13,296 nt of DNA. It comes from Candidatus Aerophobota bacterium. Its GTDB lineage: Bacteria > Aerophobota > Aerophobia > Aerophobales > B3-G15. This document shows positions 9,471-13,296 of this stretch, one piece after another. Under the pieces are notes generated by a model. The model worked only from the letters and a program-made list of their open reading frames with translations, searched no databases and was not told the DNA's origin. Each line of letters starts with the position of its first letter. Position 1 is the stretch's first letter. Location: positions 1-13,296 of the forward strand of contig JACUUP010000035.1 of NCBI GenBank assembly GCA_014859225.1, written 5' to 3'. The translations under genes and the position numbers were made by a program.

Positions 9471-10043
9471 ATGAAAACAATAACTGAGGTTAGATGGCAT
9501 GGAAGGGCGGGTCAGGGAGCAAAAACAGCCGCTCTTCTACTGGCAGAGGCAGCTTTAGGTGAAGGTAAGTATATCCAGGGATTTCCCGAGTATGGCCCGG
9601 AAAGAGAGGGAGCTCCTATAAAAGCTTATACCAGGATAAGTGATACTCCTATTTTTATCCATTCGGGAGTTGTAAATCCTGATGCTGTAGTTGTGCTTGA
9701 CGAAACCTTGCTTGATGCGGTTGATGTGGCTGAAGGTTTGCCTGAGCAGGGAGTTTTAGTGGTCAATACTAACGAGGAGCCTGAGGTTGTGCGCAAAAAA
9801 CTTGGTATGAAAAATGGCAAAATTTATACAATTAATGCTACCTCTATTTCCCTGGAGATTCTTGGCCGAAATCTTCCCAATATGCCCATGGTGGGTGCTC
9901 TTATAAAGGCGCTTCCTATTTTTAACCTTGATATACTCCTTGCAGGTGCCAAGAAAAAATTTGAAAAAAAATTTAGCTCTAAAATAGTAGAGGGAAATAT
10001 TTCTGCAATCAGGAAGGCTTACAAGGAGGTTAAATCAGAATGA
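9471..10043 (+). CDS. porC: 2-oxoacid (pyruvate):ferredoxin oxidoreductase, gamma subunit
   Basis: A 190-residue subunit of the oxygen-sensitive enzyme that converts pyruvate (or a related 2-oxoacid) and CoA to acyl-CoA and CO2 with reduction of ferredoxin, or the reverse. The gamma-subunit signature is present: a glycine-rich VRWHGRAGQGAKTAA at about 7-21, EYGPEREGAPIKAYTRIS at about 40-57, and MPMVGALIKALP near 138-149. Length is normal. It is the first gene of the operon, with the promoter at 9411-9439, and overlaps the delta-subunit gene by 4 bases (ATGA). Gene order gamma-delta-alpha-beta matches four-subunit PorCDAB enzymes. Pyruvate is the best guess of substrate; 2-ketoisovalerate or similar is not excluded. 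Confidence 0.93.
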   Translation: MKTITEVRWHGRAGQGAKTAALLLAEAALGEGKYIQGFPEYGPEREGAPIKAYTRISDTPIFIHSGVVNPDAVVVLDETLLDAVDVAEGLPEQGVLVVNTNEEPEVVRKKLGMKNGKIYTINATSISLEILGRNLPNMPMVGALIKALPIFNLDILLAGAKKKFEKKFSSKIVEGNISAIRKAYKEVKSE

Positions 10044-10360
10044 AAGAAAAAAGCTGGAAGGAAATCCCGATTGGAGGGCTTATTTTAGAGGCGGGAAATG
10101 CTGAGAAATACTTAACCGGAAGCTGGAGAACTTTTCGTCCTGTACTTAATAAGGAAAAGTGCACGAATTGTCTTTTGTGCTGGATATACTGTCCTGACTC
10201 TTCGGTGATTGTTGAAGAAGAAAAGACAAAGGGTTTTCTCTACAGTCACTGCAAAGGATGTGGTATATGTGCTAATGTTTGTCCCTTTGATGCTATAGAA
10301 ATGATAGAAGAGGCTAAATACAGACAAAAGCAGGGCGAGCAGAAAGAAGGGGGTACATAA
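10040..10360 (+). CDS. porD: 2-oxoacid (pyruvate):ferredoxin oxidoreductase, delta (ferredoxin-like) subunit
   Basis: A 106-residue electron-carrying subunit with two complete [4Fe-4S] motifs of the CxxCxxCxxxCP type: C41, C44, C47, C51 and C71, C74, C77, C81 (CTNCLLCWIYCP and CKGCGICANVCP). The N-terminal extension containing SWRTFRPVLN before the first motif is typical of PorD. It carries electrons from the thiamine site cluster of the beta subunit to external ferredoxin. It starts within the porC stop and ends one base before the alpha-subunit ATG, with GAAGGGGGT as that gene's ribosome binding site. Confidence 0.95.
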   Translation: MKEKSWKEIPIGGLILEAGNAEKYLTGSWRTFRPVLNKEKCTNCLLCWIYCPDSSVIVEEEKTKGFLYSHCKGCGICANVCPFDAIEMIEEAKYRQKQGEQKEGGT

Positions 10361-10361
10361 G

Positions 10362-11543
10362 ATGGCGAAAATTTTAGCATTAACCGGTGATGAAACGGCT
10401 GCCGAGGCTATGCGTCAGATAAATCCAGATGTTGTGGCTGCTTATCCTATAACACCACAAACTGAGATAGTCCAGACTTATTCTCAATTTGTGGCAGATG
10501 GGGAGGTAGATACAGAGATGGTACGGGTGGAAAGTGAACACTCGGCTATGAGCGCCTGTATTGGCGCAGCAGCATCAGGCGCGAGGGCAATAACGGCTAC
10601 CTGTGCCAATGGGCTTGCTTTGATGTGGGAGATTTTATACATTGCAGCCTCCTACCGCCTTCCCATAGTGATGTCAGTTGCCAACAGAGCTTTGAGTGGT
10701 CCCATAAATATTCACTGTGACCACTCTGATTCAATGGGAGCAAGGGATTCTGGATGGATACAACTTTACAGTGAAAATTGCCAGGAAATTTATGATAGCT
10801 TAATTCAAGCGGTAAAGATAGGAGAAAATAAAGATGTGTTGCTCCCGGTAATGGTTTGTTTTGATGGGTTTATTATCTCCCATTCTACGGAAAGGATAGA
10901 TATTTTAGAGGATGAGGAAATTAAAAATTTCATAGGAGATTTTAAGATAGAGCACTCTCTTTTAGATATAGATAACCCGGTAACCTATGGTCCGCTTGAC
11001 CTTTTTGATTACTATTTTGAACACAAAAGACAGCAGGTTGAAGCTATGGAAAAGGCACTTCCTGTTATAAAAGAAGTAGGAAAAGATTATGGAAAGCTTT
11101 CTGGTAGAGATTACGGATTGGTGGAAAAATTCAATATGGATGAATCAGATATGGTGATAATAGCGCTTGGTTCTACTGCCGGGAATATTAAAGCCACGAT
11201 ACAGGAGCTTAAAGAAAAAGGTATTAATGTTGGACTTTTGAAAATAAGAGCTTTTCGTCCCTTCCCTCAAGAAGAGGTGAGGCAAGCCTTGCAAGATAAA
11301 ACTTGTGTTGCCGTTATGGACCGCGCCGCTTCCTTTGGGGCTGTGGGTGGTCCTGTATTTTTAGAGGTAAGGTCTTCCCTGTATGAGCTGAATAAGCGGC
11401 CACAGATTATAAGTTACATTTATGGTTTAGGGGGAAGAGATGTAACTGTAGAACATATTAAAAAAGTTGTGGATGAGCTTAGCGGAATAAAAAAATCTGG
11501 AAAAGTGGAAAATCTGGTAAATTATTTAGGAGTAAGAGAATAA
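10362..11543 (+). CDS. porA: 2-oxoacid (pyruvate):ferredoxin oxidoreductase, alpha subunit
   Basis: A 393-residue subunit that supplies the thiamine pyrimidine-binding half of the active site. Visible family motifs: [20 protein letters not shown] with YPITPQTEI (28-36), the glutamate-bearing [20 protein letters not shown] (56-75; E58 is the probable cofactor-activating Glu), [11 protein letters not shown] (80-90), and the transketolase-C-like domain from about 260 ([34 protein letters not shown]). Length is normal for the separate alpha subunit. The next gene, beta, starts 11 bases downstream after AAAGGAG. Confidence 0.95.
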
Positions 11544-11554
11544 AGGAGAAAAAA

Positions 11555-13296
11555 ATGCCTTCTCTTAAGGAACTTTCCCATAAAAAAGAACTTTTGTCCC
11601 CGGGACACAGGCTTTGCCCGGGATGTGGAGCTTCAATTATAGTAAGACAGGTGCTTTTGGCTTCGGATAAACCGGTGATAGCTGCCTGTCCAACAGGCTG
11701 CCTTGAGGTAGCAACCAGCATTTATCCCTATACTGCCTGGAGGATTCCCTGGATTCACTGTGCCTTTGAAAATGTTGCGGCTACACTCTCGGGAGTTGAA
11801 ACCGCCTATCGTGCTTTCAAGAAACAGGGAAAGATTGGTGAAGATTTCAGATTCATTGCCTTTGGTGGAGATGGGGGAACCTATGATATTGGTTTGCAGG
11901 CACTTTCAGGAGTGCTTGAACGGGGACACAAAATGCTCTATGTATGCTACGATAACGGGGCCTACATGAACTGCTTAAGTACATCTTCTTTAATAATGAC
12001 GAAAGATGGTCTTAAGAAAATAACCGAGGTAAAAGAAGGGGATGAGATTTATGCTTTTAACCAGAGAACCCACGCGTTAGCTTTGAAAAAATGCACAGGT
12101 GTATTTGATAATGGAATAAAAGATGTTTATGAGGTTAGAACCCTTCATCATTCAATACAAGCAACAGCAAATCATCCTTTTTTAGTTTTGAAGCGAAATG
12201 GACGAGGTAAAGAAAACGAACTTATCTGGAAAACAGTATCAGAGATGGAAGTTGGGGATGAGGTTGTGGCATTGAAGAATTTGGATGAAGGAAAGTCATT
12301 TAAATTTAACTTTAATGGAGTACAAAAAGGAGATTATAAAGTAAACCGTTTGAATGAGATAAGATTGCCGGAATTTTCCAGTCCTGATGTAATGAAGTAT
12401 CTTGGCATATGGGTTGGTGATGGCTGGGTGAGAGCTGAGAAAGGAGAAGTAGGTTTTGCTATTCCTGAAGAATCAAAGGCAAGAGAGACCTTAACCTCCC
12501 TTCATTCAGAAATTTTTGGCGGGAAGATAAGAGCGGATGACAATTATGTCTATGTGAATTCTGTAAATCTTGCTCGATTTATTGATTCCCTGGGATTTGG
12601 ATTGGGAGCAAAAAATAAAACAATTCCCTCCTGGGTATTTAGCCTTCCTCTGGAGGAAAAAGAAAGTTTCCTTCAAGGTATGATGCTCTCGGATGGGTAC
12701 AAAATAGAAAATAGCTCGCGTTATGTCTCAGCAAGCTATGAGCTTCTTAAACGTCTCAGACTGTTGCTACAGACGATGGGATACAGGGTTGGCAAAATAC
12801 ACCGACAGAAAAAAGAAAAGGGTACGGTATGCGTTAAAAGAGAGCTTTTGAAAGATTCCGAGTATGGATATGTCTGTTTCAGCAAGAGGAATGGATGGAA
12901 GATTAAAAAATACCCCAATCAGTACAGATACCAAAACTTTTTAATAGGTAACAAATATTTCGAGATGGAAAAAGTAAGACAGATAAAGTTAGTCGGGAAA
13001 GAGCCAACCTTAGATTTAAGGGTAGAACATGAACATAACTTTATTGCTGACGGAATTGTAGTCCACAATACGGGCATTCAGCGCTCAAGCGCAAGCCCCT
13101 TAGGGGCTCATACAACCACCACCCCTCCCGGTAAAGCTATCCCTGAGGGAAAAACAGAATCAAGGAAGAACCTGACAGAAATTGTAGCTGCCCACAACAT
13201 CCCTTATGTTGCTCAAGCCTCCCCTGGTTATCATATGGACCTCATTAAGAAGGTTCAAAAAGCTCTATCAGCAGATGGTCCAAGTTTTATCAATGT
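11555..13296 (+). CDS. porB: 2-oxoacid (pyruvate):ferredoxin oxidoreductase, beta subunit, intein-containing, cut by window end
   Basis: The frame is open from ATG 11555 to the window end. Residues 1-139 are the N-terminal part of PorB: cluster cysteines C21 and C24 in CPGCG, C49 in TGCLEV, the [12 protein letters not shown] block (57-68), and the thiamine diphosphate/Mg motif starting at GDG (105-107) and continuing to YDNGAYMN (132-139). At that point a 366-residue intein interrupts it. The sequence then resumes at [20 protein letters not shown] and continues through [16 protein letters not shown] to the edge. PorB is about 300 residues in relatives, so roughly a third is missing to the right. 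The joined sequence [14 protein letters not shown] is the expected family motif, so splicing should restore it. Until splicing, the cofactor site is split, so the enzyme should be inactive. Confidence 0.95.
11972..13069 (+). mobile_element. In-frame intein with LAGLIDADG homing endonuclease inside PorB
   Basis: 366 residues from Cys1 to Asn366, followed by Thr+1. N-terminal splicing block: [13 protein letters not shown] with [15 protein letters not shown] (16-30). Block B: TANHPF, the T-x-x-H pattern with T65 and H68. Endonuclease: first LAGLIDADG-type motif YLGIWVGDG (143-151, acidic D150), KTIPSWVF (216-223), second motif [10 protein letters not shown] (233-242, acidic D241). C-terminal splicing block: [20 protein letters not shown] with the penultimate His365 and Asn366. 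All residues of a class 1 intein are present and the frame is open, so both splicing and endonuclease activity look possible. The residue before Cys1 is Asn. Both boundaries are exact to the codon because the flanking host motif rejoins cleanly. Splicing itself is inferred. Confidence 0.95.

Follow-up and report, generated by a model that had tools for sequence, protein, structure and literature searches.

A class-1-type LAGLIDADG intein, probably mobile, in the active-site motif of pyruvate synthase subunit PorB in an uncultured bacterial order

The porB locus and its intervening block

The window analysed here, 13,296 nucleotides long, is one entire contig (G000:C98) of an Aerophobota genome (G000; 1.8 Mb, 91% complete). 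It carries a pyruvate synthase operon in the order porG-porD-porA-porB, in which porB is the last gene visible (Table 1). Since the window is the whole contig, the end of porB is absent. PorB sequence was found in two stretches of this single frame, residues 1-139 and 505/506-580 (NCBIfam PRK11865, E 1.2e-77), and the PorB subunits in PDB entries 9bt4 and 5c4i also aligned in two separate stretches, 11-139 and 505-579. The preliminary description had proposed a 2-oxoacid:ferredoxin oxidoreductase beta subunit, read without interruption on both sides of a 366-residue block. Both points were confirmed, and the PorB profile on either side together with the porGDAB operon identifies the host as PorB, the beta subunit of pyruvate:ferredoxin oxidoreductase.

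Table 1. Features of the pyruvate synthase operon and of the interrupted porB, in window coordinates
Feature	Position	Strand	Evidence or remark
porG/porC, gamma subunit	9471-10043	+	TIGR02175, 8.7e-65
porD, ferredoxin-type delta subunit	10040-10360	+	TIGR02179, 1.5e-32
porA, pyruvate synthase alpha subunit	10362-11543	+	NF040682, 1.2e-162
PorB ORF with intein	11555-13294	+	580 codons, uninterrupted, open at contig end
PorB N-extein, 139 aa, ending YDNGAYMN	11555-11971	+	PRK11865, PDB alignments
Intein, 366 aa, C1 to N366	11972-13069	+	ORF residues 140-505; PF14890, PF14528, TIGR01445, TIGR01443
Intein block with Cys1 nucleophile (11972-11974)	11972-12010	+	direct reading
Cys41, intein residue 41	12092-12094		outside the classical blocks
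Block B, T-A-N-H, intein T65-H68	12164-12175	+	invariant in 7 of 7 copies
LAGLIDADG motif 1, YLGIWVGDG, intein 143-151	12398-12424	+	direct reading
LAGLIDADG motif 2, intein 233-242	12668-12697	+	PF14528
Block F and adjoining block, ending His365-Asn366	13010-13069	+	TIGR01443
PorB C-extein, Thr+1 then GIQRSS, cut by contig end	13070-13296	+	PDB alignments

The block between the two PorB stretches matched the intein splicing domain Intein_splicing (PF14890) at 2.5e-15 and 57 bits, above the curated cut-off of 35.8, and LAGLIDADG_3 (PF14528) at 2.7e-7, also above cut-off, over ORF residues 368-425. Its N-terminus matched the full profile, 1-83, of TIGR01445, and its C-terminus matched TIGR01443 at ORF residues 487-506. 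In the PDB, the middle block aligned weakly with the intein endonuclease PI-PkoII (E 2e-11). Cys1, T65-A-N-H68, the two LAGLIDADG motifs, His365-Asn366 and Thr+1 could be read directly, and both LAGLIDADG motifs have an acidic residue at their end. The proposed boundaries, N139 / C140...N505 / T506, are thus those of an intein, as the preliminary description had it, and they recur in the homologous inserts of relatives. The host halves join seamlessly, and empty alleles read AYMNTGIQRS across the junction. The GC content of the intein was 0.38, that of the extein 0.48. An AlphaFold model of the intein reached a mean pLDDT of 38.9, from a shallow alignment of seven rows, and at that quality did not confirm a HINT fold. 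We place the element in the class 1 type because every sequence-level defining feature that we tested was found. Taken as a whole, the insert is with a probability of about 0.93 a class-1-type PorB intein that bears a LAGLIDADG endonuclease and is mobile.

The insertion had been placed inside the motif that binds thiamine diphosphate (ThDP) and Mg in these enzymes, and this placement proved correct. In an alignment of an intein-free PorB from its own family (L009, genome G001) with 1b0p, N139 corresponds to Asn996 of Desulfovibrio africanus PFOR, which by our own count is sequence position 995 of 1b0p, a numbering offset of one residue. The same offset places Asp963, Thr991 and Val993, which we take to be Mg ligands. 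In PFOR, Asn996 forms part of the wall of the pyruvate pocket and turns when the substrate binds (PMC5020499), so the intein follows a residue equivalent to one of the substrate pocket. Among 98 PorB sequences, the six residues spanning the junction ranked as the 9th most conserved of 297 windows, a rank somewhat inflated since these sequences were partly retrieved by that motif.

From the conserved residues and from what is known of the family, we infer the chemistry of splicing as well as cleavage of DNA by the intein. porB would be translated as one precursor, in which Cys1 would attack the Asn139-Cys140 bond (N-S shift), Thr+1 would take over the N-extein and Asn366 would cyclise. The PorB intein would in this way excise itself and ligate its exteins, releasing normal PorB with the sequence AYMN-TGIQRS; if it stayed in place, it would divide the ThDP/substrate site. 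Intein-free porB is most likely cut at this position by the endonuclease domain, upon which the intein would be copied in.

Occupied, eroding and empty alleles in the order

Of 17 genomes analysed from the order, all of them fragmented assemblies, seven had an insert at this codon boundary: G000, G004, G007, G011, G013, G015 and G016. Seven others (G001, G002, G005, G006, G008, G009, G010) had an intact, empty PorB site. The boundary is supported at both ends in G000, G013, G007, G015 and G016, at the C-side only in G011, whose contig starts inside the intein, and at the N-side only in G004. Chance can be ruled out, because six further genomes have a homologous insert at the identical codon boundary. 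Fragmentation of the assemblies might suggest an artefact of assembly or binning; with the same insert framed by host-matching exteins in seven assemblies, however, we consider the probability of such an error close to negligible.

The copies differ in length. Those of G000 and G013 are full-length (366 aa), and both LAGLIDADG motifs are intact in G013 as well. G011 shows 244 aa of an intein that is at least that long, and G004 at least 116 aa before the contig end. Mini forms of 173 aa (G007) and 165 aa (G015, G016) were also found. Four distinct in-frame deletions with different ends have removed all or part of the endonuclease and kept the splicing half-domains. LAGLIDADG motif 1 is retained in G013 and G011; motif 2 is retained in G013 and deleted in the other copies, that of G011 included. 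Cys1 and the His-Asn end are each kept in 6 of the 6 copies that include the respective end, and TxxH and HN followed by T in every copy covering them. Cys41, a further cysteine, is invariant in all 7 PorB inteins and may be a redox partner of Cys1.

Full-length and mini copies occur within one genus (G013 and G007, both g8). The G004 assembly contains both alleles. On contig C67 the PorB frame passes into the intein; the first 93 nt of contig C13 are identical to C67 exactly as far as the insertion codon, after which the C-extein follows (TGIQRSS). Most simply, this would reflect a population in which the intein is polymorphic, but a second copy in the same genome or a co-binned strain may also account for it. 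The intein-free alleles that the preliminary description had suggested looking for thus occur at the level of the family, of the order and of a single assembly. At this one position, the relatives represent nearly all stages of an intein life cycle, from full through eroding and minimal forms to absence.

Neither 98 PorB loci nor about 370 genomes outside the order contained an intein at this site, a search in which archaea were barely covered. Among about 100 intein-free PorB loci from many phyla, empty relatives included, the insertion was absent, and a phylum-level extension around G061, G049 and G073, which added two new genomes, was negative throughout. The junction pattern HN-TGIQR, run over 386 genomes, matched in six of the order's intein-bearing genomes and in G144; the latter match was a chance one, with no PorB at that place. 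G004 was missed by the pattern, as the contig with its occupied copy breaks off before the intein is complete. Viral contigs contained no relative of the intein-bearing PorB, and phage records matched inteins of other hosts at only about 22-29% identity, which argues against a phage vehicle.

Divergence, homing and the question of regulation

In the PorB tree, occupied and empty alleles are neighbours: G000 is sister to the empty G001 and the occupied G015/G016 are sister to the empty G009/G010, each with support 100/98. When G011 was compared with the f6 members, the extein differed at 0.50-0.57 of comparable synonymous third positions and the intein at 0.22-0.24 (permutation p 5e-5). This discordance between genera, where the intein has diverged about half as much as the flanking gene (0.22 vs 0.52), indicates horizontal transfer. 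The lower GC content of the intein implies a lower level of synonymous saturation, and the intein plateau in comparisons with G000 was 41-48%, about 0.45 and twice the 0.22 of G011. As the G011/f6 divergence lies well below this plateau, the ancestor of these inteins is clearly more recent than that of their host genes. For G000 and G013 the extein excess was small (0.54 vs 0.43 in the intein, p 0.02), so that vertical descent is possible for this pair. The intein tree is weakly resolved, so that some pairs may have inherited the intein vertically from far back, with many losses since.

Between G000 and G013, omega was about 0.07 in the endonuclease and 0.08 in the splicing domain, with dS near saturation; judged from these substitutions, the endonuclease of both has been under purifying selection. 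The missing 3' end of porB leaves room for a dead or merely cleaving intein-like element in a non-functional porB copy, with the activity supplied by another enzyme. We regard this as very improbable. The frame is open and all splicing residues are kept, selection is strongly purifying in intein and exteins, the porGDAB operon is intact, and no second PorB match was found in the 91%-complete genome. The pattern across the order fits the homing cycle of invasion, fixation, endonuclease decay and loss described in PMC8966425. Two signs touch on homing, horizontal transfer and the co-existing alleles of G004; both are indirect as to cleavage.

The order is rich in other inteins, whose hosts include RtcB, V-ATPase subunit A, a UvrD-like helicase and class II ribonucleotide reductase. 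RtcB inteins were found in G000:C209 (L155), a copy that matches NF038162, the NCBIfam model of intein-containing RtcB, and in G007:C57 (L160). UvrD/PcrA-like helicase inteins (GDDDQ-C...HN-SIYKFRG) lie in G000:C84 (L153, cut by the contig start) and G002:C93 (L156), V-ATPase subunit A inteins (GSGK-C...HN-TVVQHQ) in G015:C117 (L158) and G007:C45 (L159), and inteins of the B12-dependent ribonucleotide reductase in G002:C91 (L157) and G006:C1 (L163).

Acetyl-CoA synthase (AcsB/CdhC, NF040764) was interrupted at two sites. At the first, in G000:C16 (L154, 3-3365) and G004:C25 (L162, 647-4501, minus strand), the intein lies between SCIL and CQSYAPNHVC, with the second Cys of the CxxC motif in the +1 position; this site is empty in G002 and G009. 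At the second, in G007:C69 (L161, 3-3488), +1 is by direct reading the first Cys of CGC, and match boundaries suggest that G015:C7, G011:C64 and G012:C72 probably carry an intein there, too. We take the CxxC and CGC cysteines to be ligands of the A-cluster, with CGC binding Ni. No paper on an acetyl-CoA synthase intein at the first site was found in the open literature searched.

The inteins of PorB and acetyl-CoA synthase hence sit at catalytic positions of two enzymes that follow one another in autotrophic carbon assimilation. In view of this succession, a shared regulatory role is conceivable, and the two inteins could gate the flux from CO2 to pyruvate as redox- or condition-dependent splicing switches; to us this is a speculative idea with little probability. 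Much the same holds for PorB taken by itself. Its intein might splice and yet have been co-opted as a switch, for instance through the redox state of Cys1, leaving pyruvate synthase inactive until conditions are reducing. Pyruvate synthase is an Fe-S/ThDP enzyme sensitive to oxygen, a second cysteine besides Cys1, Cys41, is invariant in all seven copies, the splicing domain outlives the endonuclease, and the preceding enzyme has inteins as well. However, the intein is patchily distributed and absent from sister genomes, and as its loss has to be precise, the splicing domain would be retained in any case. We therefore find such conditional splicing unlikely by a wide measure. This scattered distribution speaks for selfish elements with a preference for invariant codons of active sites.

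Relation to known inteins

Inteins reside mostly in proteins of DNA metabolism. With an insertion in the active site of pyruvate synthase, their host range comes to include a core enzyme of anaerobic carbon metabolism. The preliminary description knew of no intein in this host at this site. The open papers that we searched, among which InBase and the largest published surveys do not figure, contained no report of an intein in PorB, and host and site are on that footing likely to be unreported.

With class 1 LAGLIDADG inteins (PF14890 and PF14528; e.g. PI-PkoII), the PorB intein shares Cys1, TxxH, two LAGLIDADG motifs, the penultimate His, the C-terminal Asn, the +1 nucleophile and a conserved catalytic motif as insertion site. 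It differs from them in its host, in its site after the Asn996 equivalent and in its low identity to any solved intein. The inteins of V-ATPase A (VMA; PMC8966425) follow the same homing-cycle logic, with full, degenerate and missing endonucleases. Unlike these, the PorB series is confined to one site, in a carbon-metabolism enzyme of one uncultured bacterial order, and combines partly deleted, mini and empty forms. With seven occupied and seven empty sites, the order offers a natural deletion series on which the homing-cycle model can be tested at a single site. Finally, DnaB and other mini-inteins (PDB 1mi8, 4o1r, 6frh) consist of the splicing domain only, as do the copies of 165-173 aa in G007, G015 and G016. 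The PorB mini-inteins differ from these in host and sequence, and for that of G007 a full-length copy exists within its own genus (G013); the PorB series thereby supplies mini-inteins with known full-length counterparts.
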